NCBI GenBank assembly: GCA_026418455.1
Contig: JAOABH010000003.1
Span: 124,001 to 188,000, forward strand
DNA: 64,000 nucleotides
Reading direction: 5' to 3'
Source: Hydrogenothermaceae bacterium
GTDB lineage: Bacteria; Aquificota; Aquificia; Aquificales; Hydrogenothermaceae
The notes beneath the pieces were generated by a model. The model did not search any database, was not told where the DNA came from, and saw nothing but the letters and a program-made list of their open reading frames with translations. Made by a program: the position numbers and the translations under genes. This document shows, piece by piece, positions 12,142-61,869 of this stretch. Position 1 is the stretch's first letter. Each line of letters begins with the position of its first letter.

Positions 12142-13677
12142 ATGACGGAAAGAAATCAACTTTTAGCCCTCTATGAGATTACAAAAACTTTAACTTCTTC
12201 TATGAACTATGGTAAAAATTTACGATATGTTGTTAATCTACTCCAATCATATACAGATTTTGAAAATATATTGATAGTTCTAAATAGTATAGATAATAAT
12301 GAGATTGTAGAGATTTCTACTTATAAAGATTTAACTTATAAAAAAGGTGAGGGAATTATAGGGAAAGTTTGGAAACACGGTATTCCAATTGTAATTCCAG
12401 ATGTTTCCGAAGAGAAAGAATTCTTAAATAAAATAAAGAGAGATTTAAAGATATATAAAAATGGAAAATTGGCATTTATAGCTGTTCCCATTAAAACAGA
12501 AAGTGATATATTGGGAGTATTAGCAGCAGATAAATTTCATAGAGATGATGAATCATTGGATTATAGCTTAAGATTCTTGACAATGGTAGCTAATCTGTTG
12601 GGAAGTTCTATTAAGTTATTTTTAGAATTACAAAAAGAAAAATTAAAATTAGAAGAAGAAAAAAACTACTGAGAAATAGGTTAGAAGGATTAACATCTAA
12701 AACTGGTTTAGAAGGAGTTATTGGGAAAAGTAAGCAGATTATAGATATAGTAGATACTATAAAAACTGTTGCTCCTACTACTGCTACTGTCTTACTGACT
12801 GGAGAGAGTGGTGTTGGGAAAGAAGTTTTTGCCAAAGCAATTCATGAGCTCTCCGATAGGAAAGATAAGCCTTTTATAAAGTTAAACTGTGCAGCTATTC
12901 CAGAAGAGCTTCTTGAAAGTGAGCTTTTTGGCTATGAGAAGGGAGCTTTTACTGGTGCAAATTCTACAAAAAAAGGGAAGTTTGAACTTGCCGATGGAGG
13001 AACGATATTCTTAGATGAAATAGGTGATATGCCTTTACTCTTACAGTCTAAAATTCTTAGAGTTCTGCAGGAAAAAGAAATAGAAAGATTAGGTAGTTCA
13101 AAACCTATAAAGATAGATGTGAGGATTATAGCAGCTACAAATAAAAACCTTGAAAAGATGGTTTATGAGGGAACTTTTAGGGAAGATCTTTTCTATAGAT
13201 TGAATGTGGTATCTATCTATATACCACCTTTAAGAGAAAGAAAAGAAGATATACAGTTGTTAATTATTTATTTCTTAGAGAAATTTAATAAAATCTATGG
13301 AAAAAGACATAACTATATCTTATCAACTATTAAATGCCTTAGTTGATTTTGATTGGCCCGGGAATGTAAGACAACTTCAAAACACTATTGAAAGGATGGT
13401 TATTCTTGCCAAATCTTCAAGGTTAGATTTAGATGATCTGCCAATTGATATTAAAAACAAATTGAAGGAAAGTAAAGCTTCTATAACTAAAACCGAGATA
13501 GAATATTCCGATAATGTTATTTTACCAAAGACTGTTGAAGAGTTAGAGATAAATGCTATCAAAAGAGCATTGGAAGAATCAGGATTCATAATAAAAAAGG
13601 CAGCTCAGATTCTTGGTATAACTCCACGACAGTTAAGATATAGAATGGATAAATATAAAATTCCTTTTAGAAAATAA
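12142..13677 (+). pseudogene. Frameshifted sigma-54 activator (GAF-AAA+-Fis), probable nitrate-assimilation regulator
   Basis: Three reading frames together encode one NifA-like protein of about 510 residues: an N-terminal GAF domain (12142-12660), an AAA+ domain (GESGVGKE Walker A, GAFTGA sigma-54 contact loop, FDWPGNVRQLQN) and a C-terminal Fis helix-turn-helix (AAQILGITPRQLRYR). Frame 1 stops at 12670-12672; a -1 shift at the A7 run (12659-12665) restores a continuous linker, and frame 1 positions 12660-12666 read A_AAA_AAC, a textbook -1 slippery heptamer. A second shift, cured by removing one A from the A5 run at 13301-13305, restores the sequence into the Fis domain. It could be a real pseudogene, a recoded gene or a sequence with two homopolymer errors. 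Next to the sigma-54-type nitrate operon, it is the obvious activator. Confidence 0.8.
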
Positions 13678-14685
13678 TTTTTCTATTTTTCGTCACAGAT
13701 TTGTATATCTCAAAACATTCATAAGCTGCCCCGGAATTTAAACTCTCTTCGGCAAGAGTTATAGATTTTTTGATATCATTTTCAATATTATAGGCACTTA
13801 TTATTATTGCGGAAGTAAGTAATGCCCATTCTCTGAATGGATTATCTTTGTTTTTAAGAATATCTATACATAAATTGGCATTCTCTTTAACTGTAGTTTT
13901 TTCAGTTATTTTTAAGGTTTCAGTTTTTTTTGGGAAAATAGATATTGAAAAAATTCTGTTTGTAGTTACTTTTGTTTCCCTATTAGTGTATGGCTCTATA
14001 CCACCTTCTAAACCATTTACAAGAAATATATCTTTAAATCCAACATGTGTTCCTATTTGGATATACTTAGTAATAAACTGTTGGTGAGTTACTCCAATTA
14101 AAACCTTTGTAGTTTTGAAAGGGTTTAACATTTTTTCTATCGTGTTAAGAAAGTTCCTTAAGCCAAATTCTTGTCTCTTAGGTAAAAGAGATGCCAACTT
14201 TGGATTTAAATATCTTTGGTGATAGAAACCAAATCCGGAAAGTTCAACGGTTTTAAGTATATCATCTGGATCTGATTGATATGAACATCCCATTGCATTT
14301 ATTACTTCATGATAGGTTACTCCGAATTTTGATGGGACATTTTCATTTCCGTGACCTACTATTTTCACTCCAGTTCCAGCTGCTATAAATATTGCTGCAG
14401 GAAGAATATGAACTGTTTTATTTTTTCCGTCATATCCTACTGCTAAATCTATAGGTTTTATTTCATCACTATCAATATAGTTGGTTTCATCTCTTAATGC
14501 ATCTATGAACCCATTAAGCTCTTCAGCAGTAGCGTATTTTATTCTCATAGCAGACCAAAATGCACCTATCTGTATATCTGTCGCTTCTTTATTTAGAATT
14601 TTTTTATGAGCATCGTAAGCTTCATTGTATGATAAATCTTTCCATCTTTCTTTTCCAGCACCGACTTTTTTAAGTATATCAACAT
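13667..14685 (-). pseudogene. TrpD-like phosphoribosyltransferase (TrpD2 type) with a frameshift at its start
   Basis: The open part (13667-14548 onward) matches anthranilate-phosphoribosyltransferase-like proteins: DLAVGYDGKNKT, AAGTGVKIVGHGNEN and an AxxYP-less active site. Upstream the same frame continues through family-like sequence (DILKKVGAGKERWKDL, then IGAFWSAMRIKYA) but has no start codon before a TAA. A properly spaced ATG (14685; GAGGA 7 nt upstream) is one frame off; restoring one G (ATGGTT instead of ATGTT) would join them. True TrpD function is doubtful, since no tryptophan genes are nearby. From memory, Aquifex has a trpD2 near its nitrate genes. The 3' end overlaps the convergent activator gene by 11 bp. 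Confidence 0.72.
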
Positions 14686-14716
14686 CTTAGTTTCCTCAAA
14701 TTTATGAATATAAAGT

Positions 14717-14725
14717 ATTATACCA
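14717..14725 (-). promoter_or_regulatory. Extended -10 promoter of the TrpD-like gene
   Basis: The minus strand reads TGGTATAAT, an extended -10 element, about 32 nt upstream of the ATG at 14685. No good -35 box is visible at the expected distance, which is common with extended -10 promoters. Confidence 0.5.
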
Positions 14726-14757
14726 GTTAGTTTTATAGAGATAATTTTTATTTTTAG

Positions 14758-14785
14758 TTACAAATTTGTAATTACATTTTTGTCA
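14758..14785. promoter_or_regulatory. Two tandem 14-bp dyads, candidate enhancer of the nitrate operon
   Basis: TTACAAATTTGTAA (14758-14771, a perfect palindrome) is directly followed by TTACATTTTTGTCA (14772-14785), the same half-site pattern TTACA-N4-TGTNA. The first centre lies 97 bp upstream of the GG of the -24/-12 promoter, the usual place for sigma-54 activator binding. The adjacent Fis-type activator gene is the likely source of the binding protein. Confidence 0.55.
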
Positions 14786-14859
14786 TTTATGGCTTTAAAG
14801 TATTTTCCTAAATATGAATAAATCAAAATAATACCTATATATCAGATATTTATATGAAT

Positions 14860-14875
14860 TGGCATGTTCTTTGTA
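14860..14875 (+). promoter_or_regulatory. Sigma-54 (-24/-12) promoter of cobA-nirA-narK-nasA
   Basis: TGGCAT-N5-TTGTA matches the -24/-12 consensus TGGCAC-N5-TTGCW; the distance from the first G of GG to the G of the -12 element is exactly 12. The -12 element is imperfect (GT for GC). Transcription is expected near 14886, 24 nt before the cobA ATG. Confidence 0.7.
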
Positions 14876-14909
14876 TTATCTTAGCAGAGAGTAATTTGAG
14901 GTGATTACA

Positions 14910-15680
14910 ATGGGAAAAGTTTTCTTGATAGGTTGTGGACCTGGAGATTATGAACTTTTAACTATTAAGGCATATAAAACTTTACAAAATTTAGATATAG
15001 CTCTTGTAGATCATCTAATAACTGATGAGATATTAGAGACTTTACCATCAAAAACCAAGATTTTGTATGTAGGTAAGCAAAAAGGAAGGTTATCGGTAAA
15101 GCAAGAGGATATAAACAAAATTTTGTTAGAGTTTGCAAAATCCGGATTAAGAATAGGAAGATTAAAAAGTGGGGATCCTTATATCTTTGGGAGAGGGGGA
15201 GAAGAGTATTTATTTTTATTACAAAATGGGATTGAGGTAGAAGTTATACCTGGAGTGTCTTCTTCAACTGCTGGACCTTTATATGCAGATATTCCAATAG
15301 TAATGAGAGATTACTCTTCCGGATTTTCTGTTGTATCTGCTCATCTTTCCGGAGATAGATTCAATAAAGACTGGATACCTCTGTTGAAGCTAAGAAATCA
15401 CACAGTTGTAGTATTGATGGGATTAAGTAGAGTAAAAGATATTTTAGAAGAGGCAAAATATCAAGGTATAGATCTTAGGATTCCAACTGCCATAGTTAGC
15501 AATGTTTCACGATCTGATCAGAAGGTTGTAACTGGAACTCTGGAAGAGATAGAAAAACTTGCATCTGTCTCTCAAAAACCTGCGGTAATTATATTTGGAG
15601 AAGTTGTTAATCTACATAAAAAAATCAGAAGTTACAAAAATGTAACATTGAACATGGGAGAGTTAATATGGAAAAAATAG
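14910..15680 (+). CDS. cobA: Uroporphyrinogen-III C-methyltransferase (nitrate-operon copy)
   Basis: The 256-residue protein is a SUMT/CobA enzyme: VFLIGCGPGDYELLTIKA at the N-terminus, GRLKSGDPYIFGRGGEE in the SAM site, VLMGLSR and PTAIVSN further on. It makes precorrin-2 from uroporphyrinogen III, the first step to siroheme for the nitrite reductase downstream. The start is the ATG at 14910, because the alternative GTG at 14901 is part of the GAGGTG ribosome-binding site. The family usually has GGDP where this copy has SGDP. A paralogue sits in the sulfate operon at 55883. Its end overlaps nirA by 13 bp. Confidence 0.9.
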   Translation: MGKVFLIGCGPGDYELLTIKAYKTLQNLDIALVDHLITDEILETLPSKTKILYVGKQKGRLSVKQEDINKILLEFAKSGLRIGRLKSGDPYIFGRGGEEYLFLLQNGIEVEVIPGVSSSTAGPLYADIPIVMRDYSSGFSVVSAHLSGDRFNKDWIPLLKLRNHTVVVLMGLSRVKDILEEAKYQGIDLRIPTAIVSNVSRSDQKVVTGTLEEIEKLASVSQKPAVIIFGEVVNLHKKIRSYKNVTLNMGELIWKK

Positions 15681-17596
15681 TAAAAGTATCCCAGGAAAAG
15701 AATAAAAAATTAAATCAGATAGAACTATTAAAACTCCAGTATTCACCACAAGAAACATGGGAGAAATTGTCCTACTATGCTGTGAAGGGATTTTCTTCAA
15801 TATCAGAAGAGGATCTAAATTTCTTTCTTAAATGTTTCGGTATTTTTTACAGACCGGCTACTGGAGATAGATTTATGCTAAGGATAAGAATTCCAGGAGG
15901 TAAGTTAAACTACGATCAAGCTAAGAAGATAGGAGAGTTAGCTAAGGTATTTGGAAATGATTATATAGATATTACGACGAGAATGCAGGTAGAACTTAGA
16001 TATCTAAGGATAGAGGATATTCCTATAGTATTAAGGGAGTTAGAAGATGTTGGAATAACAACATTTCAAACAGGAGTGGACAATTTTAGAAACATAGTTC
16101 AAGATCCTTTAGATGGGGTAGCTTTTGATAATGTTATAGAAACTTGGGATACACTTTTAAAGATACAAGAAATTTTTTTAAAGAAAGAAGAATGGATATG
16201 TAAATTACCAAGAAAGTTTAATATAGGCATATTAGGATCATACTCTAATCGTTGTAATATTTACGGGCATGATCTTTGTTTTGTTTTGGCTGAGAAAAAT
16301 GGATTTTATGGATTTAATGTTTATCTTGGTGGAAAAGTTGGGAATGTAGCAAAATCTGCAGATGTTTTCCTTTTAAAAGAAGATGTTCCTGTATTTTTTA
16401 AAGCTTTAGCACAGTTATTTAAAGAATATGGTTTTAAAGATAGTAGGAATAAAAATAGGCTTAAATACTTAATAGATGCTGTAGGTATTGGTTATATAGT
16501 CGATGGAGTTAGTAAATTAGCAAATAGAGATTTTGATAAAGCAGGTAAAACATTAACAAATCTGGAAGGAGGGGAAAAAACAGGAAAAGTTTTTTTGAAA
16601 GATGGAACTTTTGCCATTCATATGGTTATTCCAGCAGGAATATTTTCTGGAAGTGATATGTTAGAAATTGCTGAACTTTCTAAAATATTCGGAAATGGGG
16701 AAATTAGATTAACAGTATCTCAAAACTTATATATTTTAGGAGTACCAAAAGATAATATAAGTAAACTTTTATCACACCCTATATTCCAAAAATATAAAAA
16801 TATACACTCCCCTTACTTCAATGATCTTATTGCTTGTGCAGGAACAGAACATTGTCCTTTCGGTGTAATACCAAATAAGCCAGATGCTATTAAATTAGCA
16901 GATTATTTAACTTCTAACTATCCATTAGATTCATCTCAAGCAAAAATCCGTATGTATTGGTCTGGTTGTGGAAAAGGTTGTGGACTTCATGGGTTGGGAG
17001 ATATCGGATTTGTAGGAGTAAAATTTAAAAAAGGAGAAGATACTCTATTAGGTGTTGATATCTATTATGGGGGAATTGTAACAAATGAATCGGAAGAAGG
17101 TAAACTTTTATTAAAGTCTGTAAGTTTAGATGAAGTTCAGTTTTATGTTGAAGAGTTAATAAAAGAGTATATCCGTTTAAAGGAAAGAGATGAAAGTTTT
17201 GAAAATTTCTATAAAAGAGTTCTATCAAGGTTATCAAAAGATGCTCTTAGGTTTTTTCTTATTTTTAATAATTTTGTAAAAGTAAAGTTTCCATATATAA
17301 GATTAGAGTTAGATGAATTAGTGTTAGATAAATCTTGTGAAGAAGAGGAGATATTTGGATTTGGGTTTCAGCTGTATAAAAAATTAACAGGAAAAAATCC
17401 TTACTCAAGACCGTACATCTTAGAAATTTACTCTGAACCTTTACCTTTGAAACCTTCAGAAATTAACCCTACACTACCAAAATTTTTCGATAGTTTTCTG
17501 TTAAAGATGATCCATAAGAATCCATCAAATAGATACAAAGTTTTCACAGAAATAGTTTCTGATTTAGAAAAAATTAATTTTTTCCAGGAGGTTTGA
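15668..17596 (+). CDS. nirA: Siroheme nitrite reductase with a kinase-C-lobe-like tail
   Basis: The 642-residue protein is a siroheme/4Fe-4S nitrite/sulfite reductase with two ferredoxin-like half domains and the cluster ligands C390, C396 (CAGTEHC), C434 and C438 (CGKGC). In an operon with nitrate reductase and CobA it should reduce nitrite to ammonium with ferredoxin. It is longer than typical NirA. Residues about 558-638 resemble the end of a Ser/Thr protein kinase: EIFGFGFQLYKKLTGKNPY looks like subdomain IX, and FLLKMIHKNPSNRY with R622 like subdomain XI. The kinase N-lobe, catalytic loop and APE are absent, so the tail cannot be an active kinase. No transmembrane segment seen. Confidence 0.87.
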   Translation: MEKIVKVSQEKNKKLNQIELLKLQYSPQETWEKLSYYAVKGFSSISEEDLNFFLKCFGIFYRPATGDRFMLRIRIPGGKLNYDQAKKIGELAKVFGNDYIDITTRMQVELRYLRIEDIPIVLRELEDVGITTFQTGVDNFRNIVQDPLDGVAFDNVIETWDTLLKIQEIFLKKEEWICKLPRKFNIGILGSYSNRCNIYGHDLCFVLAEKNGFYGFNVYLGGKVGNVAKSADVFLLKEDVPVFFKALAQLFKEYGFKDSRNKNRLKYLIDAVGIGYIVDGVSKLANRDFDKAGKTLTNLEGGEKTGKVFLKDGTFAIHMVIPAGIFSGSDMLEIAELSKIFGNGEIRLTVSQNLYILGVPKDNISKLLSHPIFQKYKNIHSPYFNDLIACAGTEHCPFGVIPNKPDAIKLADYLTSNYPLDSSQAKIRMYWSGCGKGCGLHGLGDIGFVGVKFKKGEDTLLGVDIYYGGIVTNESEEGKLLLKSVSLDEVQFYVEELIKEYIRLKERDESFENFYKRVLSRLSKDALRFFLIFNNFVKVKFPYIRLELDELVLDKSCEEEEIFGFGFQLYKKLTGKNPYSRPYILEIYSEPLPLKPSEINPTLPKFFDSFLLKMIHKNPSNRYKVFTEIVSDLEKINFFQEV

Positions 17597-17597
17597 C

Positions 17598-19034
17598 ATG
17601 GCAACATCAAATCAATCAAGAATTTCAGTAATTGAAGCTCTAAAGAGCGGAAATTGGAAAAGTGTGGTGGCTATGTTCCTTTACTTTGATACCGGTTTTA
17701 CTGTTTGGCTTTTATTTGGACCAGCTTTAGGATTGTTTATCTCTAAGGAACTTGGATTAAAGCCTGCTTATCAGTTTTTTATGGCAGGAGTGCCTCTTAT
17801 AATGGCTGCTGTTCTTCGTATCCCTTTTGGGTATATGTTACAGGCTATAAACGGTAAAGTAATAGCTACTATGGGTATTTTACTTTCCATGATACCTCCC
17901 ATTTATCTTAATTTAAGACCAGGGACACCAACCTTAGAGGAGATTATTATACTCGGTGCATTTTTAGGAATGGGAGGAGCAAGTTTTGCTGTGGCTCTAC
18001 CTGTAGCTGGATCAACTTATCCTAAGAAGTATCAAGGAATAGTCCTTGGGATTGCAGCAGCCGGAAATATTGGTGCTGTTTTAGATGGTTTTCTTTTCCC
18101 ACCGTTAGCTAAGATGTTTGGGTGGAAGTTAGCATCTTTAGCAGCTGTTGCTCTTTTAGTTTTAGCTTTGATTACAGTTTTAGCGTGGGCTGAAGACAGA
18201 ACTCCCAAAAAACCTGAGTTAAAGAAACATGCAGTTATTACTTTTATCTTTACTTTTGTTTTCGGTATATCTGTGATATTTGGACTCTATCTGTTAATTA
18301 ATTGGTTGATAGCTCAAGGTAGTATGTCTCCTATAAAATTAAAAACAATGCTACTGCTTTTACCTATTGTAATTGGTGGCTTTGCTTTGATAATACTTCC
18401 TCCGGTCTATAGATCAGTCCTAAAAGAAAGAGACATGTGGAAATTTATACTGATCTATTCTATAACCTTTGGTGGTTTTGTTGGTATGTCCAGTGGAGTA
18501 GCTTTTATATTGGAATCTACATATAAATTTTCTCCGGTCACATCAGGAATAATAATGTCTTTACTCGCTCTAACAGGAGCAGTGTTAAGACCTATAGGAG
18601 GATTTGTTGCTGATCATATAAGTGGAGTGAAAGTTTTAGTAGGAGTTTTACTGTCTATCTCTTTATTTAATTTTGCTTTAGCTTTTGCTGCTCCTGTTTT
18701 ACCTACAGGTTTAGGTATAGTTCTTCTATTTGGGTTATTTGCCTCTTATGGATTTGGAAATGGAGCTACCTTCCAGTTAGTGCCTCTTAGATGGCCTACT
18801 GCTACCGGTATAACAACAGGAATAATTGGTGCTGCAGGAGGGTTTGGAGGCTTTATCCTTAATCAAACTTTTGGACTTATAAAAGAAGCAACAGGCTCTT
18901 TTAATATGGCTTATTTTATATTTGGAGTGATCTCAATTATGACCTTAGCTGGTCTACTTTTACTTAAAAAAGAGTGGAGTCAGTGGGCTATAGCAGATAG
19001 AAATGACAACAGAGTGATTGGAGAAAGCAATTAG
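17598..19034 (+). CDS. narK: Nitrate/nitrite MFS transporter (NarK family)
   Basis: The 478-residue protein is strongly hydrophobic with about twelve membrane segments and the glycine-rich nitrate signature (GAFLGMGGASFAVALPVAG) of the NNP subfamily, plus a second glycine-rich stretch (SYGFGNGATFQLVPLRWP) in the C-terminal half. It probably imports nitrate across the inner membrane. It starts at an ATG with AGGAGG (17586-17591) inside the end of nirA, one base after its stop, so translation is likely coupled. Some genomes call this gene nasA. Confidence 0.9.
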   Translation: MATSNQSRISVIEALKSGNWKSVVAMFLYFDTGFTVWLLFGPALGLFISKELGLKPAYQFFMAGVPLIMAAVLRIPFGYMLQAINGKVIATMGILLSMIPPIYLNLRPGTPTLEEIIILGAFLGMGGASFAVALPVAGSTYPKKYQGIVLGIAAAGNIGAVLDGFLFPPLAKMFGWKLASLAAVALLVLALITVLAWAEDRTPKKPELKKHAVITFIFTFVFGISVIFGLYLLINWLIAQGSMSPIKLKTMLLLLPIVIGGFALIILPPVYRSVLKERDMWKFILIYSITFGGFVGMSSGVAFILESTYKFSPVTSGIIMSLLALTGAVLRPIGGFVADHISGVKVLVGVLLSISLFNFALAFAAPVLPTGLGIVLLFGLFASYGFGNGATFQLVPLRWPTATGITTGIIGAAGGFGGFILNQTFGLIKEATGSFNMAYFIFGVISIMTLAGLLLLKKEWSQWAIADRNDNRVIGESN

Positions 19035-19045
19035 GAGATTTAATC

Positions 19046-21118
19046 ATGAATATAATGAAAACTCAATGTCCTTACTGTGGTGTTGGTTGTGGGTTGGAAA
19101 TAGAAGAAGTTAATGAAGGTAAATTTAAAGTAAGAGGTGATAAAGACCATTCTGCAACAAAGGGGGATTTATGTTTAAAACCTGTTCTTCTTCCAAAAGT
19201 TTTAGATATAGGAAGGATCCCATATCCTTTATACAGGGAAGATAAAAGAGAGGAGTTTAGATATATAAGTTGGGAAGAAGCCATTAGTATAATTTCAGAT
19301 AAACTGAAAAAAAATCTTCCAGATGAAAATTATTTCTATATATCCGGACAGTTATTTACAGAAGATATCTATGTGATAAATAAGTTTGTTAAAGGTTTTA
19401 TAAAAACAAACAATATTGATGCTAACTCAAGATTATGTATGGCTTCAGCTGTTATGGCTTATAAGATGGCTTTTGGTTCTGATGGACCACCTTGTAGTTA
19501 TGAAGACATTGACGATACGGATACTTTTATCTTTGCAGGTTCTAATGCAGCATGGACACATCCTGTTTTATTTAAAAAAGTATTAAATAGAAAAAAAGAT
19601 AGTCCTCAAACAATAATAATAACGATAGATCCAGTTAAAACTGAGACAGCAGATAAATCTGATATATGGATACCTATTAAACCAGGAACAGATACTGTAT
19701 TTTTTAACAGTGTTTTATATGTTTTACATAAAAATAACTGGATAGATTATGAGTTTGTGTCAGAATTTACAGATAATTTTTCTCAAGCTGTTGAAGAAGC
19801 TAAAAATTATCCTCCAGAGATAGCGTCAAAGATATGTGAAATAGAAGAACAGTCTATTTACCGATTAGCAGAGATATTTAGAGAAAGAAAAAAAATTATA
19901 TCTTTTTGGGCTATGGGATTAAATCAATCTGTAAATGGAACAATGAAAATTCTTTCTCTTATAAATCTTCATCTTGCAACAGGAAGAATAAATGAAAAAG
20001 GATGTCCATTTTCTTTAACAGGGCAACCTAACGCTATGGGAGGTAGAGAAGTCGGATATCTTACTAATGGGTTGCCAGGATACAGAGATGTGAGAAATGA
20101 AGAAGATAGAGAGTTTATTGAAAAGTTTTGGAATATAGAAAAGGGGACTATAAAATCAAAACCAGGTCCAACTATCACAGAAGCTGTAAATAAAATGATA
20201 GATGATGAGATAAAATTTCTTTGGATTGTATGCACTAATCCAGCTGTAACTATGCCGAATTTAACAAAGTTTTGGGAAGCTCTTGAAAAAACTTTTGTAG
20301 TAGTCCAAGATGCATATTTAAACGATACAATGGATTTTGCAAATTTGGTATTACCTGCTACACAATGGGGAGAAAAAGAGGGAGTAATGACAGGGTCTGA
20401 TAGAACGATTACTTACTGTAAACCATTTAAAGAACCTCCATTACAATGTAAACATGACTGGCAAATCTTTTGTGAAGTTGCCAAAAAGTTGGGATTTGAA
20501 CTTCAATTTTCTTATAAAAATAGCAGAGAGATATTTGATGAATATAAAAGTACAACAAAAGGAAGGATATGTGATATATCTGATTTTAGCTATGAAGATT
20601 TACCAAAAAGATGGGGTGAGAGATGGCTTTATCCTGATAAACAGTTTAAAACAGACAATGGAAAAGCAAAATTTACTCCAGCAGTTTTTGAAGCACCTAA
20701 AGACAGTTTATCATCTAAATTAATCCTTGTCACAGGAAGAACAAAAAAACAATGGCATACAATGACTAGAACTGGAAAATCTTTAGAACTTGTAAAAGGT
20801 GAAGAAGAACCACTTTTAATATTAAATCCAGAAGATGCTGCTTTATATCACGTAATAGAAGAAGAATATATTACTGTTCAATCACCAAGAGGGTTAATCA
20901 GAATAAAAGTAAAGTTTGGAAATATTAAAAAAGGAGTGGCTTTTGCTCCTTTTGGATATGGATTAATGTATCACTTCCCCGTAAATATTTTAACTTCTGA
21001 CGAAGTTGATCCAATTTCAAAAGAACCAGATTTAAAATTTAGCAGTATAAAAATAGTAAAAGTAAAAAGTAAATTCATAAATTCTCTTGGAGGTGAAAGC
21101 CATGCAGTCCACTCTTAA
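19046..21118 (+). CDS. nasA: Assimilatory nitrate reductase, molybdopterin catalytic subunit
   Basis: The 690-residue protein is a NarB/NasA-type nitrate reductase. It begins with the 4Fe-4S ligands C8, C11, C15 and C43 (CPYCGVGC then GDLCLKP), contains SRLCMASAV with the likely molybdenum-ligating Cys, and ends with the molybdopterin-dinucleotide domain (TGRTKKQWHTMTRTG). It is cytoplasmic, with no Tat signal and no C-terminal 2Fe-2S or flavin module, so ferredoxin is the probable donor. Start ATG follows AGGAG 12 nt after narK. Its last 17 bases overlap the porin gene. Confidence 0.92.
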   Translation: MNIMKTQCPYCGVGCGLEIEEVNEGKFKVRGDKDHSATKGDLCLKPVLLPKVLDIGRIPYPLYREDKREEFRYISWEEAISIISDKLKKNLPDENYFYISGQLFTEDIYVINKFVKGFIKTNNIDANSRLCMASAVMAYKMAFGSDGPPCSYEDIDDTDTFIFAGSNAAWTHPVLFKKVLNRKKDSPQTIIITIDPVKTETADKSDIWIPIKPGTDTVFFNSVLYVLHKNNWIDYEFVSEFTDNFSQAVEEAKNYPPEIASKICEIEEQSIYRLAEIFRERKKIISFWAMGLNQSVNGTMKILSLINLHLATGRINEKGCPFSLTGQPNAMGGREVGYLTNGLPGYRDVRNEEDREFIEKFWNIEKGTIKSKPGPTITEAVNKMIDDEIKFLWIVCTNPAVTMPNLTKFWEALEKTFVVVQDAYLNDTMDFANLVLPATQWGEKEGVMTGSDRTITYCKPFKEPPLQCKHDWQIFCEVAKKLGFELQFSYKNSREIFDEYKSTTKGRICDISDFSYEDLPKRWGERWLYPDKQFKTDNGKAKFTPAVFEAPKDSLSSKLILVTGRTKKQWHTMTRTGKSLELVKGEEEPLLILNPEDAALYHVIEEEYITVQSPRGLIRIKVKFGNIKKGVAFAPFGYGLMYHFPVNILTSDEVDPISKEPDLKFSSIKIVKVKSKFINSLGGESHAVHS

Positions 21119-22394
21119 AAAAATAACGTTACTTTCAGCATTAATTAGTCTCTCTGTTCCTTTCTATGCTCCTCAGCAAGCTATGGGGTTAGAAATCAAT
21201 GCTCCTACTTTTATTGATGATGTTAAAGTAAACCTACTGTTTAGACCTAGGTATGAGTATGTTGATGATCATCAACCTAACACAAAACCTGCAAACGCAC
21301 TTACAGTTAGAACTTCCCTTGGAGTTCAGATTAACAAGATATTCCAAGTAAATGGTTTAAAGGCATACATAGAAGCAACAGATGTAGGAGCTTTGGTAGA
21401 TGATTACTCTCCTCAAAAAACAGGATATGCACAGGTAAATGATCCTGATATAGCAAGAATTACAGAAGCATATATAAGTTATACATATAATAAAACTACT
21501 TTTATGGCTGGTAGGATGAGAGTAAATATAGATGATGAAAGATTTATAGGTTCTGTAGATTGGAGACAGATGCCTCAAACTTTTGGAGTAATAGGAATAA
21601 AAGATAACACGATCAGCAATCTTGATTTACTTATAGCCGGAATTTATGAGAGAAAAGGTGTTAGTGATAATTTAAATAAGCATTGGAGACTTGACAAAAT
21701 GCCGATTATACTACATGGAAGTTATAAATTTATACCGCAGTTTAAGATAACAGCTTACGGGTATCTTCTCACAGATTTAAGTAACACTTATGGTATAAAT
21801 ATTACCGGAGATATACCATTATCAAAAGATGTAAAATTCGGTTATCTTGGAGAGTATGCAATTCAGAAAGATCCATATGCTAAAGATAATGTTACAAAAA
21901 AACCTAAAGTAGATGCTGACTTCTATAGAGTAGAGGCAAAACTTAGCGGTTATGGATTTTTTGGTATTGCGGGTTACGAGAGATTTCAAGGAGCAGATAA
22001 AGGAGAAGACAAAGGATTTACAACACCACTTGCTACACTTCACAAATGGGAAGGATGGGCTGATAACTTTTTGGGTTATATAGCAAATACAGACACTTTT
22101 GGATTAAAAGATGCTTACATCACTTTAGGGTATGGACATAAAGATTATGGTACAGCTTTAATCACTTACCATAAGTTTGATGCAGATAAAAACACAGGTT
22201 ATGTAGGGAATACATTAAAAACAATAAGTAGCAAAAACTTTGGATCAGAGATAGATCTATCTTATACAGTAAATCTTACAAAAAGATTAAATTTCTTAGC
22301 AAAAGCTGCTTTCTATGATGGTAAAAAGATAGCAGGTTCTCCATCTGTCAATGATTTAACAAAATACTGGCTTCAGCTTACATATAAGTATTGA
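21102..22394 (+). CDS. Outer-membrane beta-barrel protein (putative nitrate-operon porin)
   Basis: The 430-residue protein has a signal peptide (charged MQSTLKK, hydrophobic stretch to about residue 30) and then alternating polar/aromatic beta-strand sequence rich in Tyr, Gly and Asp. It ends in LTKYWLQLTYKY, an aromatic C-terminus typical of outer-membrane barrels. It resembles porins in general design, but I cannot place it in a named family. GGAGGTG (21089-21095) precedes the ATG at 21102, and the gene overlaps nasA by 17 bp, so it is translationally coupled. A role in passing nitrate or nitrite through the outer membrane is inferred from position only. Confidence 0.78.
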   Translation: MQSTLKKITLLSALISLSVPFYAPQQAMGLEINAPTFIDDVKVNLLFRPRYEYVDDHQPNTKPANALTVRTSLGVQINKIFQVNGLKAYIEATDVGALVDDYSPQKTGYAQVNDPDIARITEAYISYTYNKTTFMAGRMRVNIDDERFIGSVDWRQMPQTFGVIGIKDNTISNLDLLIAGIYERKGVSDNLNKHWRLDKMPIILHGSYKFIPQFKITAYGYLLTDLSNTYGINITGDIPLSKDVKFGYLGEYAIQKDPYAKDNVTKKPKVDADFYRVEAKLSGYGFFGIAGYERFQGADKGEDKGFTTPLATLHKWEGWADNFLGYIANTDTFGLKDAYITLGYGHKDYGTALITYHKFDADKNTGYVGNTLKTISSKNFGSEIDLSYTVNLTKRLNFLAKAAFYDGKKIAGSPSVNDLTKYWLQLTYKY

Positions 22395-22397
22395 TAG

Positions 22398-22426
22398 TTG
22401 TTAATATAAGATTGTTAGTTTATAAT
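22398..22426 (+). promoter_or_regulatory. Sigma-70-type promoter of the siroheme synthase gene
   Basis: TTGTTA (22398-22403) and TATAAT (22421-22426) are separated by 17 bp just after the porin stop codon. The predicted start, about 22433, falls within the left arm of the hairpin at 22428-22456. Confidence 0.55.
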
Positions 22427-22427
22427 G

Positions 22428-22456
22428 CTCTACATATTAGTGGTAAATATGTAGAG
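22428..22456 (+). promoter_or_regulatory. Inverted repeat overlapping the ribosome-binding site of siroheme synthase
   Basis: CTCTACATATT and AATATGTAGAG are perfect 11-bp arms around a 7-nt loop. The right arm covers the first bases of the AGAGGT ribosome-binding site (22453-22458), and TTTTT follows at 22461-22465. In read-through mRNA from the nitrate operon it would fold and hide the ribosome-binding site, or act as a weak terminator; as DNA it is placed like an operator over the start site. Confidence 0.55.
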
Positions 22457-22465
22457 GTAATTTTT

Positions 22466-23041
22466 ATGAGTTATATGCCTATATTTTTAGAAGTGAAAGA
22501 TAAAAAATTTTTAATAGTAGGGGGAGGGAGGGTTGCTACAGAGAAGATAAAGAGAATTCTCAAATTTAGCTATAATATCACTGTTATTTCTCCTGAGATA
22601 ACGGAAGAGTTAGAAAGTATCATAAAGGAGAACTCCCTAAATTATATAAAGAGTCCTTATACTTCTGATATCATAAAAGATTATGACATTATTATCGTGG
22701 CAGTTTCTGATACAAACTTACAGAAAGTAATTTATAATGATGCAAAAAGAGAAAATAAACTATGTAACACCGTTGATGTTATAGGAGAATCAGACTTTAT
22801 CTTTCCTTCTGTTGTCAAAAAGGGCAACCTTATAGTTGCATTTTCAACATCAGGAAGTTCTCCGGCTTTGGCAAAGTATCTTAGAGTATACTTTGAACAG
22901 GTAATTCCTGGAGAGGTTGAACAGTTTTTAAAAGAAATGGAGGATCTTAGAAACTCTCTACCTAAAGGCAAAGAGAGACAAGAGCTTTTTGATAAAAAAG
23001 CTAAGGAGTTTTTTGAAAAGATTTTTATGAAAAATCTATAA
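22466..23041 (+). CDS. Precorrin-2 dehydrogenase / sirohydrochlorin ferrochelatase
   Basis: The 191-residue protein matches the N-terminal half of CysG (Met8p family): FLEVKDKKFLIVGGGRVA is the NAD-binding loop, and GNLIVAFSTSGSSPALAKYLR is the conserved dimer/active-site segment. It oxidises precorrin-2 and inserts iron to give siroheme, completing the pathway begun by either CobA in this window. I start at the ATG at 22466 with GAGGT 7 nt upstream; an in-frame start at 22391 would add a leader with no family match. Its 3' end overlaps the convergent pdxA by 6 bp. Confidence 0.9.
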   Translation: MSYMPIFLEVKDKKFLIVGGGRVATEKIKRILKFSYNITVISPEITEELESIIKENSLNYIKSPYTSDIIKDYDIIIVAVSDTNLQKVIYNDAKRENKLCNTVDVIGESDFIFPSVVKKGNLIVAFSTSGSSPALAKYLRVYFEQVIPGEVEQFLKEMEDLRNSLPKGKERQELFDKKAKEFFEKIFMKNL

Positions 23042-32463: not shown

Positions 32464-33363
32464 TCAATAAACTTTATCATAAAAACAGCCAAAGTTCATA
32501 ATTTCAATAATTTCTGATGCTTGTTTTAAAGAATATGCACCTTGAGATATAAGAGCTTTCACAAACTCCGCATTTAATCTATGACCACCTTTGAATGAGA
32601 AAATCTCCCCTATTATTGGGTAACCTAATAGGTATAAATCTCCTATTAAATCCAATGTTTTATGTCTTATAGGTTCATCTTCAAATCTTAAACCTTCTTC
32701 ATTTAAAACTTTATCTTTATCAAAAACTACTGCATTTTCTAAGGAACCACCTTTTGCAAGTCCCTTGCTTCTGAGGTATTCGACTTCTTCTAAGAAACAG
32801 TAAGTTCTGGCTGTATATATTCCTTTAAAAGAGTCTATATTCTCCGGAATATACTCAAATTTTTTATTTCCTATGATACTGTTATTGTAGTTTGCCTGAT
32901 AGATTACTTTAAACCTGTTTGAAGGGGTAGCTTTTATAAATTTATCTTCCTGAAATATCTCTATTGGTTCTTCTATTACTGCATATATTTTTTCTTGAGG
33001 AAGGGAAACAATACCTGCTTCTTTTATTTTTTCTACAAAAACTTTACTACTACCATCAAGTATAGGTAACTCTTCTCCTTGTGCTATTTCAATTGTTATG
33101 TTGTCTATTCCTGTAAAGTAGAGTGCTGCCATTAGATGTTCAACTGTTCTGATAGTTTTACCTTCTTTATAAAGTGTAGTTGAGTATTCAAAACTGTGGG
33201 CGTTATCTATGTGAGCAGGTATAACAACTCCATCTTTTATAAACTTGATTCCTTCATTTTCTTTTGCTGGTATCAGATATAAAGTTGTATTTTCTCCGGA
33301 GTGTAATCCAACTCCTTCTATCTTAATTGGATTCTTTATAGTCCTTTGAAATTGACATATCAT
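32464..33363 (-). CDS. lpxC: UDP-3-O-acyl-N-acetylglucosamine deacetylase
   Basis: The 299-residue protein is LpxC: GVGLHSGENTTL, TVEHLMAALY with the first zinc His, IRHKTLDLIGDLYLLG with the HKxxD zinc motif, and GGHRLNAEFV with the catalytic His. It performs the committed step of lipid A synthesis, so the cell has a lipopolysaccharide outer membrane. ATG start with GGAGAT upstream. Apparently monocistronic, divergent from argG. Confidence 0.94.
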   Translation of the reverse strand: MICQFQRTIKNPIKIEGVGLHSGENTTLYLIPAKENEGIKFIKDGVVIPAHIDNAHSFEYSTTLYKEGKTIRTVEHLMAALYFTGIDNITIEIAQGEELPILDGSSKVFVEKIKEAGIVSLPQEKIYAVIEEPIEIFQEDKFIKATPSNRFKVIYQANYNNSIIGNKKFEYIPENIDSFKGIYTARTYCFLEEVEYLRSKGLAKGGSLENAVVFDKDKVLNEEGLRFEDEPIRHKTLDLIGDLYLLGYPIIGEIFSFKGGHRLNAEFVKALISQGAYSLKQASEIIEIMNFGCFYDKVY

Positions 33364-33561
33364 CTTTAATCTCCTTCAAAAAGGGTTAAATTTTAGCAAG
33401 CAATATTTATGCCAAAGATATTTTAACCTAAAATCTAAAGATTTCAGAGGTTATCTGTTTTATTTTTGCAAATTTGACAAAACTATAATTTCTATGAAAC
33501 TCTACCATCAATTCAAGCTATAATATTTTTTTGAAAATTTTATAATTTTACCGGAGGTATT

Positions 33562-55882: not shown

Positions 55883-56647
55883 CTAATGATTTAAATTCAT
55901 CAGGATATAGGGTTGATTTCTTATTAAATCCTCTATGTCTGCAAATTTATGACAAAGTTTTACTACTTCGCCAAACATGATTATGGCTGGAGTTTCAACA
56001 AGTTGTGCTATTTTTTCAATATCTCTTAATGTCCCTGTAACAACCTTTTGGTTTTTCCTTGAGATATTGCTTATAATTGCTGTAGGTATTTCAAGGTCTA
56101 TATTTTGCCTTATAGCTTCTTCTTTAATTTCTTTTACTCTACTTAAGCCCATTAATACAATAGTTGTATGATTGGGGATCTTTAATAATTCTATCCAGTT
56201 TTTATTAAATTTATTTCCCTTGATATGAGCTGATACCACAGAAAAACTTGATGAAAATTCTCTAAATGTTACCGGTATACCGGTGGATAGAGCAGAAGTT
56301 ATACCCGGAATAATTTCCACATCAATTCCTTTACTTTTTAGATATATTAACTCTTCTCCTCCTCTTCCAAAAACGTAAGGGTCTCCACCTTTTAACCTTC
56401 CAACAACTAAATTTTCTTTAGCAAACTCATACATAAATCTATTTATCTCTTCTTGTTTTACACTGTGTTTACCTTTTTGTTTCCCAACATAAATAATTTT
56501 TACACCTGGCGGAATAAGTTCCAGTATCTCCTCAGATATTAAATGATCTACCAACGCTATATCTAAATTTTTGATAGCTCTTACAGCCTTAACAGTTAAC
56601 AGATCTGGATCACCAGGTCCACAACCTATTATATAAACTTTTCCCAT
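55883..56647 (-). CDS. cobA: Uroporphyrinogen-III C-methyltransferase (sulfate-operon copy)
   Basis: The 254-residue SUMT has VYIIGCGPGDPDLLTVKA, GRLKGGDPYVFGRGGEEL and VLMGLSRVKEI. It is a paralogue of the copy at 14910, sharing long identical blocks such as NLDIALVDHLI and YVGKQKG. It makes precorrin-2 for the siroheme of sulfite reductase. Here the SAM-site motif is the canonical GGDP, unlike SGDP in the nitrate copy. It follows sat by 15 nt in the cysH-TSUP-sat-cobA operon. Confidence 0.91.
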   Translation of the reverse strand: MGKVYIIGCGPGDPDLLTVKAVRAIKNLDIALVDHLISEEILELIPPGVKIIYVGKQKGKHSVKQEEINRFMYEFAKENLVVGRLKGGDPYVFGRGGEELIYLKSKGIDVEIIPGITSALSTGIPVTFREFSSSFSVVSAHIKGNKFNKNWIELLKIPNHTTIVLMGLSRVKEIKEEAIRQNIDLEIPTAIISNISRKNQKVVTGTLRDIEKIAQLVETPAIIMFGEVVKLCHKFADIEDLIRNQPYILMNLNH

Positions 56648-56662
56648 TTTTTTGCTCCCTTT

Positions 56663-57817
56663 TCATCTGTTAATAGCCCATTTTATTAATACATCAGCAA
56701 CTTCCAGTCTAGAGAATTCCTTAGGAGGTCTCTTTCCTTCCCTTAGCATTGCTCTCACTTTTGTTCCGCTTAAATGAAGGTGATCTTCTTTAGAATGTGG
56801 ACAAGTTTTCGAGAATGCCATATTTTCACATTTTGTGCAGTAAAAAGAGTGTTCAAACTTTAAAGGCTGTATTCCAAGCTCATCTTTAAGCTGTTCCACA
56901 AATTCCTGGGCTTCATAGGTCCCATAGTAATTTCCTACTCCTGCATGGTCTCTGCCTATTATCATATGAGTTGCACCGTAATTTTTTCTTATTAGCATAT
57001 GGTGGACCGCCTCTCTTGGACCAGCATAATGCATTGATGCAGGTAGTACCGATAAGTGAACTTTTTCTTTGTTAAAATAATTATCTATCAGTACTTCATA
57101 GCATTTCATTCTTACATTTGCCGGTATATCATCTGGCTTTGTTTCTCCAACAAGAGGATGTATCAATACTCCATCCATAAGTTCAAGAGCTACTTTTATA
57201 ATATACTCGTGGGCTCTGTGTATTGGATTTCTTGTTTGAAAAGCTACTATATTTTTCCAGTTTCTTTTCTTTATATTTTCTCTAACCTGTGCAGGGTCTA
57301 AATAATATTTTTCATCTATACCTTCTCTTACAGGTCTGTTTAGAAGTCTTATTATTTCACCACCTATAAAGTTGCTTCCTGAGCTTTTTACAACTTTTAC
57401 CCCCGGATGTTCTATATCTGTTGTGTTGAAAATATTTCTGCAGTAATTTTCAATATCTAATTTAAATTTATCTTCTATAAGCATAATGGCTATTGGTCTA
57501 TTGTTTTTATCATATAGAGCTACTTCATCAGCTATTTTCACGTCTTTAAATATATCCTCGGGAATTGGTAAAACTATAGGAATAGACCATAAAAGTCCAT
57601 TTTTAAGATGTATATTATTGATAACTTCTTCTGCATCTTCTTTTGTCAAAAATCCATTTAGTGGGGAAAATCCACCGTTTGCTATCATCTCGCAATCACT
57701 TACATATCTGTCAGCTATTACAATTTTTTTAAGTTTTTCTGCTTTTTCTATTAAATCTTTTCTCTCTTCTTCAGTAGCTATCTTGTTTATTAATTTACCT
57801 CCATGAGGATTGAGCAT
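56663..57817 (-). CDS. sat: Sulfate adenylyltransferase (ATP sulfurylase)
   Basis: The 384-residue single-domain enzyme has FQTRNPIHRAHEYIIKVAL (the QTRNPxHRAHE site, shown in part), LVGETKPDDIP and GRDHAGVGNYYG. A C-terminal zinc site (CTKCENMAF, CPHSKEDHLHLSGT) is as in thermophilic bacterial enzymes. There is no APS kinase domain. It makes APS from sulfate and ATP. Within an operon with APS reductase and CobA, and with sulfite reductase across the promoter, the direction is assimilatory. Confidence 0.95.
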   Translation of the reverse strand: MLNPHGGKLINKIATEEERKDLIEKAEKLKKIVIADRYVSDCEMIANGGFSPLNGFLTKEDAEEVINNIHLKNGLLWSIPIVLPIPEDIFKDVKIADEVALYDKNNRPIAIMLIEDKFKLDIENYCRNIFNTTDIEHPGVKVVKSSGSNFIGGEIIRLLNRPVREGIDEKYYLDPAQVRENIKKRNWKNIVAFQTRNPIHRAHEYIIKVALELMDGVLIHPLVGETKPDDIPANVRMKCYEVLIDNYFNKEKVHLSVLPASMHYAGPREAVHHMLIRKNYGATHMIIGRDHAGVGNYYGTYEAQEFVEQLKDELGIQPLKFEHSFYCTKCENMAFSKTCPHSKEDHLHLSGTKVRAMLREGKRPPKEFSRLEVADVLIKWAINR

Positions 57818-57836
57818 TTTTTAACCTCCTTCTACT

Positions 57837-58598
57837 TTAAATTTTTTTTAATAAAAACCCAAAAGATAAAAATATAATGAAGAAATAAAGTGCTATCTTG
57901 AGCTTGTCTTGAGATACCTTAGGAGATATAAAAGCTCCAACAAAAGCTCCAATAACTCCACTTAATATCAGTTTAGTTGCAATCACTTCATCTACATTTC
58001 CTAAGGAATAATGTACAGAACCGGCAACTAACGATAGTATCAGACCATGAACTATATCGCTTCCGACTATTTTCGAAGGAACCAACGGACAAACTGCCAT
58101 TAATATGGCAGTTACTAGAACACCTGAGCCAATAGATGTTAATCCTATCTCAAACCCTATAATAAATCCAAGTAAAGATATAAGATAAGGTCTGTTTCTT
58201 ATATCTATATCTATTAAATCTTTTTTAATATATGATTTATAAAATGAGAAAATTACAGAGATAAATATAAGTAAAACAACTAAGATAGGTAGTAGTTTAT
58301 TAACTAAGATAGGATATTTTTCATTGAGTAGATGTAAACTGTAACTACCCAGAATTGTCCCTGGAACACTTCCGAAAGCCAAAAAAGATATTAGCTTTGT
58401 ACAGATCGACCTTCTATATACATAAACAGAAGCAGCAGCTATTTTTGTAATACCTGCAAAAAGAAGACTAGTTCCAATAGCAGTAGTAATAGGAACATTG
58501 AAGAATAAAACCAATGTTGGGGTGGTTAACATACCTCCCCCAAGTCCAGTTATTCCTATAACAAATCCTAATATAGCTCCTATTATCAGTATTTCCAT
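57837..58598 (-). CDS. TSUP (TauE/SafE) family membrane permease
   Basis: The 253-residue protein has about eight membrane segments and the TSUP signature in both halves: GFVIGITGLGGGMLTTPTLV and EIGLTSIGSGVLVTAILM. TSUP proteins move sulfite, sulfate or organosulfonates; between cysH and sat the likely cargo is sulfate import, although export of excess sulfite cannot be excluded. The true start is ATG 58598, overlapping the cysH stop (TAATG), with GGAGAAAG upstream; the longer in-frame start at 58631 lies within cysH. Confidence 0.87.
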   Translation of the reverse strand: MEILIIGAILGFVIGITGLGGGMLTTPTLVLFFNVPITTAIGTSLLFAGITKIAAASVYVYRRSICTKLISFLAFGSVPGTILGSYSLHLLNEKYPILVNKLLPILVVLLIFISVIFSFYKSYIKKDLIDIDIRNRPYLISLLGFIIGFEIGLTSIGSGVLVTAILMAVCPLVPSKIVGSDIVHGLILSLVAGSVHYSLGNVDEVIATKLILSGVIGAFVGAFISPKVSQDKLKIALYFFIIFLSFGFLLKKI

Positions 58599-59311
58599 TA
58601 TTCTTTCTCCGTAAATGTATGTAAACCACATTCTAATTTCCCTTTACCAGCCCATCTACCAGCCCTTTCGTCATCTCCTTCAAGGACAGGTTTTGTACAA
58701 GGAGCACACCCTATACTTAGATAGTTTTTATCGTAAAGAGGATTGTATGGTAGTTTATTTTCTATAACATAAGTCCATACATCCTTTCTTTTCCAATCTG
58801 CTATTGGATTAACTTTAAGAATATGCTTTCCTGAAGGAATAGGAATCTTATGGATTTCTAATTTCCCTATATTTGCCCTGGTAGGAGATTGATCTCTTCT
58901 CATTCCCGTAATCCATACATCAAGATCTTCCAAAGCTCTTTTCAAAGGCTCTACTTTTCTTATTTCACAGCATTTGTCAGGATTTTTTTCATAAAGTTTC
59001 TCTCCGTATAGTTTATCCTGTTCTTCTATAGATATAAGAGGTTTAATGACTTTTAAATTTAGTTTCCACTCTTCTCTTAACCTCTCAACTAACTGATAGG
59101 TTTCAGCAAAATGAAAATCTGTGTCTATAAAAATTATTAAAGCATCTGTTTTTATTTGTTTTATCATATGGATAATAGCAATATCATCAGCACTAAAAGA
59201 AGATGTAAATCCGACATTCTCAAAATTTTCATAGACCCATTTTAAAAGTTCTTTTGCAGTTAGATTTTCAAAATACTCGCTTTTTTCCTTTGCAAACTTT
59301 TCTGTAAACAT
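58598..59311 (-). CDS. cysH: Adenylylsulfate (APS) reductase, thioredoxin-dependent
   Basis: The 237-residue PAPS/APS reductase has SFSADDIAIIHM (phosphate loop), KCCEIRKVEPL and IGCAPCTKPV. The CC...CxxC pairs bind a 4Fe-4S cluster and mark the APS-using type. The C-terminal ECGLHTF holds the catalytic Cys that forms the S-sulfo intermediate. It reduces APS to sulfite. First gene of the leftward operon behind a near-perfect -24/-12 promoter; ATG after GAGAGGTGG. Confidence 0.94.
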   Translation of the reverse strand: MFTEKFAKEKSEYFENLTAKELLKWVYENFENVGFTSSFSADDIAIIHMIKQIKTDALIIFIDTDFHFAETYQLVERLREEWKLNLKVIKPLISIEEQDKLYGEKLYEKNPDKCCEIRKVEPLKRALEDLDVWITGMRRDQSPTRANIGKLEIHKIPIPSGKHILKVNPIADWKRKDVWTYVIENKLPYNPLYDKNYLSIGCAPCTKPVLEGDDERAGRWAGKGKLECGLHTFTEKE

Positions 59312-59346
59312 CTATCCACCTCTCTACTTTAGTTTTCAAGATATAT

Positions 59347-59362
59347 AGCAAAAGATGTGCCA
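59347..59362 (-). promoter_or_regulatory. Sigma-54 promoter of cysH-TSUP-sat-cobA
   Basis: On the minus strand TGGCAC (59362-59357), 5 nt, then TTGCT (59351-59347): a full match to TGGCAC-N5-TTGCW. The start is expected near 59336, 25 nt before the cysH ATG. Confidence 0.82.
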
Positions 59363-59415
59363 ATTTTTTCAGACAGGAATATCAACACTTCATAACTTTT
59401 ACAATTCACTGTGAT

Positions 59416-59450
59416 GGCTAAAAAATGTTCAAGTTGGCGATTTTTTAACC
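59416..59450. promoter_or_regulatory. Inverted repeat midway between two sigma-54 promoters (candidate shared enhancer)
   Basis: GGCTAAAAAAT (59416-59426) and ATTTTTTAACC (59440-59450) are inverted 11-nt arms with one mismatch and a 13-nt spacer. The centre (59433) is exactly halfway between the GG pairs of the cysH and sulfite reductase -24/-12 promoters, about 72 bp from each. Probably bound by the activator encoded at 61870. Confidence 0.65.
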
Positions 59451-59503
59451 AATCTTACATTTGTTACATACTTTAAAAACTTGAAGATAGTTAGATATAA
59501 ATA

Positions 59504-59519
59504 TGGCATAGATATTGCT
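59504..59519 (+). promoter_or_regulatory. Sigma-54 promoter of the sulfite reductase-activator operon
   Basis: TGGCAT (59504-59509), AGATA, TTGCT (59515-59519) fits the -24/-12 consensus with one deviation and exact 12-bp GG-to-GC distance. Start expected near 59530; the ATG at 59560 follows GGAGGA. Confidence 0.82.
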
Positions 59520-59559
59520 TATAAGAATACAAATTCTAATTTGAAGGAGGAAATTCCAG

Positions 59560-61848: not shown

Positions 61849-61869
61849 ATTTTTATATGGTGAAGTTGC

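Follow-up and report, generated by a model that had tools for sequence, protein, structure and literature searches.

A probable paired-dyad enhancer and sigma-54 promoter of a nitrate assimilation operon beside a frameshifted GAF-type activator gene in Hydrogenothermaceae

The window analysed here, a stretch of 64,000 nucleotides from a heat-loving Hydrogenothermaceae bacterium whose assembly comprises 1.535 Mb in 8 contigs, carries on its plus strand an operon with the order cobA-nirA-narK-nasA-porin-cysG behind a sigma-54-type promoter. The operon opens with cobA/sumT (14910–15680; Pfam and NCBIfam), coding for a uroporphyrinogen-III C-methyltransferase that would furnish the siroheme for NirA, which is followed by a nirA-like gene for a ferredoxin nitrite reductase with NIR_SIR domains (15668–17596; NCBIfam match below cut-off), a NarK-type nitrate/nitrite transporter of the MFS class (17598–19034; TIGR00886 match below cut-off) and a molybdopterin oxidoreductase resembling assimilatory nitrate reductases (nasA, 19046–21118; matches to Fdh-alpha, NasC and NasA models, all below cut-off). 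It closes with an outer-membrane porin-like protein (21087–22394; weak match to PF13372) and an NAD-binding protein of the CysG N-terminal type (22391–23041; PF13241), which we take to be of the precorrin-2 dehydrogenase type. This domain content supports the first-pass annotation in seeing nitrate assimilation downstream of the promoter, and the best named relatives of the nitrite reductase come from Hydrogenothermaceae and Persephonella MAGs (Aquificota). Divergent from cobA lies a gene recognised by domain search as a TrpD2/YbiB-like glycosyl-transferase (13667–14548, minus strand). Its homology runs on to about 14686 with a disturbed 5' frame when compared by eye with the relatives' loci L090 and L005, such that its 5' part (14549–14690, minus strand) seems to be out of frame with the listed ORF.

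The leader between these divergent genes holds two abutting strandless dyads with a 14-bp period: the distal one, TTACAAATTTGTAA (14758–14771), is a perfect palindrome with half-sites TTACA/TGTAA seen on direct reading and kept in relatives, and the proximal one, TTACATTTTTGTCA (14772–14785), was recovered by both direct reading and pattern search. Downstream of them, on the plus strand, is the −24/−12 element TGGCATGTTCTTTGTA (14860–14875), recognised by direct reading, by pattern search and by its conserved place in the leaders of relatives, from which a transcription start near 14885 can be inferred; a likely ribosome-binding site of cobA, GAGGTGAT (14898–14905, plus strand, by eye), precedes the ATG start codon at 14910. 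The −24 TGG and −12 TTG are correctly spaced and the −12 box reads TTGTA, unlike the canonical TTGCW. Both the TGGCAT-N5-TTGTA promoter and the two abutting copies of TTACA-N4-TGTNA that had been read here earlier are thereby borne out, with only the distance of about 97 bp between them proving loose: the TGG lies 88 bp from where the proximal dyad starts and 102 bp from where the distal one does. On the other side of the leader, a possible degenerate divergent sigma-54 element, TGGTATAATACTTTAT (14710–14725, minus strand, by eye and of low confidence), faces trpD2 and has TGGTATA-type counterparts in the relatives' loci L004, L077 and L081. In these three, TGGTATATTTTTTGCN elements face trpD2 across the dyads from the nirA side, and the enhancer may there serve two divergent sigma-54 promoters.

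Dyads and promoter were compared with shuffled and reversed controls. The single dyad TTACA-N4-TGTNA has 7 strand-matches in the window (shuffle mean 1.1, largest 5), and the tandem pattern of 20 fixed positions has one match with up to 3 mismatches, as against none in 100 shuffles; it occurs at one place in the whole genome, with 0 for the reversed pattern. With up to 2 mismatches, the tandem is present in 12/41 family genomes and 12/112 genomes of the order (reversed control 0/112); since all 12 fall within the family, it is found in none of the 71 order genomes outside it. The sigma-54 pattern TGGCAYNNNNNTTGYW has 13 matches in the genome and 5 for its reversed control, and a stricter form, allowing up to 1 mismatch, does no better in the window than chance would (0.45 matches expected, and at least one in 35 of 100 shuffles). 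As the match in the window is not significant by itself, the reality of the −24/−12 element rests on conservation: of the 26 readable nirA/cobA leaders, 24 have a sigma-54-like element in a comparable position, with a background of 0.005 per 60-nt slot, and the two leaders outside the pattern hold the near matches TGGCATAAACATTGCC (G017) and TGGCATGAAATTTTCC (G019). The sigma factor itself is present, for the genome carries an rpoN (PF04552 at 2.2e-57) in a 448-aa frame with no internal stop, in line with the earlier reading, which a lack of rpoN would have refuted.

A comparison of 26 collected dyads gives the invariant letters T-ACA-N4-TGT-A around a core made only of A/T. A strict 14-bp period does not hold as a rule, for the spacing over 13 leaders is 14 bp in nine (G023 being included by a copy with 2 mismatches), 15 in two, 34 in one and 56 in one. 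Measured between the TGG and the first base of the proximal dyad, the distance falls, by our own arithmetic on the leaders, into classes of about 62–65, 74–76 and 88–89 bp; helical phasing was considered and rejected, because the differences between classes do not match 10.5 bp and because genomes that are related tend to have the same class. A further perfect dyad, TTACAAAAATGTAA (15632–15645), lies within the 3' end of cobA shortly 5' of nirA and recurs at the same place in L032 and L034; it is probably coding, since it encodes Tyr-Lys-x-Val in both genomes read.

Beyond trpD2 lies the activator gene, which now lacks one intact reading frame and is spread by two frameshifts over three frames, all on the plus strand and all identified by domain search. 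A GAF piece (12142–12672) ends at the first frameshift; an AAA+ piece with the Sigma54_activat domain and its GAFTGA motif (12675–13345) continues in another frame, which offers no ATG, GTG or TTG before the domain; and a piece with the AAA lid and a Fis-type HTH_8 domain (13297–13677) follows the second frameshift. The breaks lie near 12.66–12.67 kb and at about 13.30 kb, both in A-rich stretches, and in the orthologue L035 the GAF, Sigma54_activat (with GAFTGA) and HTH_8 domains are all in one frame. The first-pass annotation had seen in promoter, dyads and neighbour a complete local sigma-54 circuit, and this does not hold in the genome at hand: its activator ORF is split, and among the matches listed no intact orthologue is found elsewhere in the genome. 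The pieces are 46–59% (GAF), 78–86% (AAA+) and 56–64% (HTH) identical to their orthologues, a level like that found among the intact orthologues themselves, and it is the third positions that are the most variable. These patterns speak against old decay and suggest that the lesions are either recent or errors. As a check, 464 kb of the assembly were compared with the ORFs on 800 kb of a relative assembled in one contig. Among the 150 conserved genes aligned (47,587 residues), a sample that favours well conserved sequence, none is frameshifted, and the same script recovers both breaks of the activator; thus, the general error rate of the assembly is unlikely to yield two within 1.5 kb. A second gene, a nifA-like GAF-EBP beside nifW (L049, 953–2577, minus strand, contig C3 of this assembly, near 321.2–322.3 kb), is also frameshifted, near an A/G run.

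The association of the dyads with this activator can be followed across the family. Of its 41 genomes, 29 have nirA; leaving out G018, whose contig begins within cobA, G044, where the gene is partial, and G008, whose gene is a different one at 46% identity, and reading G019 through L098, 26 leaders remain. The activator orthologues are 61% or more identical (those of G000, G002, G011 and G041 being partial or interrupted), and at least two dyads with up to 1 mismatch occur in the nirA/cobA leaders of 13/13 genomes with the orthologue and 0/13 without it (Fisher's test, 1.9e-7), although the orthologue-negative leaders belong nearly all to one clade (genus g7 plus G003), so that few independent events underlie the contrast. 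Two of these leaders have a lone 1-mismatch dyad about 240 nt upstream. Counted across the 41 genomes, abutting tandems occur in 10/14 with the orthologue as against 2/27 without, and the four orthologue genomes that lack it hold paired dyads at 15, 15, 34 and 56 bp. G018 and G009, which have tandem dyads and no orthologue among those listed, are counter-evidence; both assemblies are fragmented (G009 being 97% complete), and partial genes at contig ends could fall under the search cut-off. A dyad with up to 1 mismatch also stands 8–21 nt (own arithmetic) before the activator start codon at 10 of 13 readable loci, that of G002 not being readable; the exceptions are G004, G022 and the window itself, where none is found upstream of the start within 3 mismatches. 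The comparative association thus supports the earlier view that the NifA-like neighbour is probably the activator belonging to these sites, and the tandem-dyad site is, as judged by comparative genomics, a regulatory site. TrpD2/YbiB was also considered as the dyad-binding protein and rejected, for trpD2 adjoins nirA in genomes without dyads too.

In part of the family the same sites reach other nitrogen genes. The loci L074, L075 and L076 have the tandem between glnB and glnA, and L082, L083 and L087 have dyads before glnB, adjoining amtB or glnA (single in L082 and L087), these gene names being presumed from the ORFs; among glnA leaders, 5/30 carry dyads with A/T cores (G018, G041, G023, G009 and G022). 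The role in these lineages accordingly extends beyond nitrate to nitrogen assimilation at large. In the genome at hand the search that had been proposed near other nitrogen genes yields no other tandem. Its glnB-glnA locus (L072) has no dyad, and a sigma-54 element, TGGCATAGTTTTTGTA, is found there before glnB, preceded by TGCAA/TTGCA-type repeats, so that the gln genes of this genome may answer to another EBP. Each of the five perfect single dyads outside the window has G or C within its core, and an evident nitrogen gene follows none of them; one lies inside an ORF that is presumably carA-like. The genome keeps nifH with a sigma-54 element of its own, and a 1-mismatch dyad 75 bp before its −24 box is not significant, with about 0.3 such matches to be expected among the other 12 promoters.

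Other sigma-54-like elements lie elsewhere in the window. One, TGGCATAAATATTGCT (33399–33414, minus strand), is 51 nt before a minus-strand ORF (32464–33363) whose start resembles, we assume, lpxC. A sulfate assimilation cluster at 55883–63258, with a second cobA (62% identical), holds the divergent elements TGGCACATCTTTTGCT (59362, minus strand) and TGGCATAGATATTGCT (59504, plus strand) together with an intact EBP (61870–63258), and constitutes a second local sigma-54 unit. An enrichment of sigma-54 at sulfite reductase has been reported in Aquificia (PMC12316311).

The identity of the nitrate-side activator can be narrowed from its relatives. The GAF domain of L035 is best matched by that of Nlh1 (4g3k, 1.7e-38, residues 2–173), and the AAA+ piece of the window groups with the orthologues in one clade, separately from the EBP beside nifW. 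The adjoining activator is therefore best read, on comparative genomics, as an Nlh1/NifA-like activator of nitrogen assimilation and not as NifA: the dyads track it, and the same sites front glnB/glnA in some relatives.

Taken together, the locus is very probably the promoter-enhancer of the nitrate assimilation operon, with the adjoining GAF-AAA+-HTH_8 activator binding the dyads and being broken in this genome. What is observed here is that the elements exist, are conserved and co-occur with the activator gene, and that rpoN is present; binding and activation would follow from the EBP class. A closed sigma-54 RNA polymerase would sit at the TGGCAT-N5-TTGTA element, and two dimers of the activator would bind the abutting TTACA-N4-TGTAA dyads some 90 bp upstream. 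The GAF domain would signal nitrogen need, perhaps through 2-oxoglutarate or another nitrogen-status ligand, leading to assembly of the AAA+ ring, DNA looping and ATP-driven opening of the promoter, whereby siroheme synthesis, nitrite reductase, transporter and nitrate reductase would be made together. In relatives, the lone dyad close to where the activator gene starts would be suited to autoregulation, as autorepression. Relatives keep intact copies of the activator; in the genome at hand the two frameshifts probably leave the switch with no activator of its own, so that it is either silent or driven by another EBP.

How far the frameshifts are real bears directly on this last point. That they are local sequencing or assembly errors, and that the strain has a complete working circuit, is a serious though somewhat doubtful possibility: both breaks lie in A-rich runs, the pieces remain orthologue-like with the third-position bias kept and no old decay, and promoter and dyads are preserved, but the same assembly shows no frameshift in the 150 conserved genes and the nifA-like gene is broken as well. 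Two nitrogen EBP genes have their breaks in or close to A-rich runs, with promoter and operators still conserved, and this also admits a slender chance that both breaks are reversible by changes in run length, giving a population with cells in which nitrate assimilation is off or on; this might operate by slipped-strand phase variation, or transcriptional slippage might allow low-level expression.

Other readings turn on which protein, if any, uses the dyads. They might be operators of an unrelated repressor, with the sigma-54 promoter using some other EBP, as the repressor-like position of the single dyad before the activator start codon, the suitability of paired sites for any dimeric HTH protein and the presence of 8 other strong EBP genes in the genome would allow; against this, the dyads track the activator gene while trpD2 adjoins nirA in genomes lacking them too, and the pairs stand as far off as an enhancer would and do not overlap the promoter, which makes this account unlikely. 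It is quite improbable that the activator is a NifA whose nif-type UAS has spread to the nas genes. L035 does pass the NCBIfam NifA cut-off, just (532.2 vs 528.85 bits), and its best PDB match is a NifA (9qq6), but the nas leader has no TGT-N10-ACA, the EBP beside nifW is another gene and falls outside the clade, a nifH promoter is present in the genome, and the linkage of the activator is to cobA, nirA and gln genes. Finally, the leader is AT-rich and its −24/−12 match is not significant alone, so chance palindromes beside a chance TGGCA match, with an ordinary promoter driving cobA, might be entertained; the shuffled and reversed controls and the similar position across genera leave this barely credible, and no sigma-70-type promoter was found on the plus strand of the leader.

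The promoter-enhancer reading, with the neighbouring activator as cognate EBP, offers a defined operator, TTACA-N4-TGTAA and usually paired, together with a candidate regulon that an Aquificota sigma-54 activator of the GAF type would control; our literature searches found no operator mapped for such an activator. It also offers a testable target and, by way of the gln and nas context, a likely ligand class for the Nlh1-type GAF domain. The NifA score of L035 is a warning that automatic annotation can call such an activator NifA. The broken activator beside an intact, conserved enhancer is the surprising part, and constitutes a natural test of a sigma-54 promoter without its own EBP.

Among known systems, the Nlh1 of Aquifex aeolicus is the closest in its sensory domain: its GAF aligns over its length, and that of Nlh2 more weakly (1.3e-23), this likeness being drawn among solved GAF domains. 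In PMC9866876, Nlh1 is speculated to control nitrogen assimilation and not fixation, and the ligand of its GAF is called unknown; the literature text covered describes no operator for it. In the 71 genomes of the order outside Hydrogenothermaceae, the tandem is not found. With NtrC and the nas genes of Proteobacteria the locus shares a sigma-54 promoter with an upstream enhancer on nitrate assimilation, extending in some relatives to glnB/glnA; in contrast, the activator here has a GAF in place of an N-terminal receiver domain and is thus not NtrC, and the nas leader contains none of the TGC-N9/10-GCA sites that form the NtrC consensus. NifA has the same domain order and a GAFTGA-type AAA+, but site, gene linkage and clade all differ: the NifA UAS, TGT-N10-ACA, has no match in 14691–14860, and the activator here is without nif linkage, its neighbours being trpD2, cobA and nirA, with the nifW-adjacent EBP another gene. 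NorR, too, combines GAF, AAA+ and HTH and acts through several neighbouring sites that precede a sigma-54 promoter, a layout shared here; the leader has no GT-N7-AC sites of its type, and the target is nitrate assimilation, not NO reductase. Control by an EBP with sigma-54 is a textbook class of mechanism, and the dyad-activator pair is a new, family-restricted case of it.
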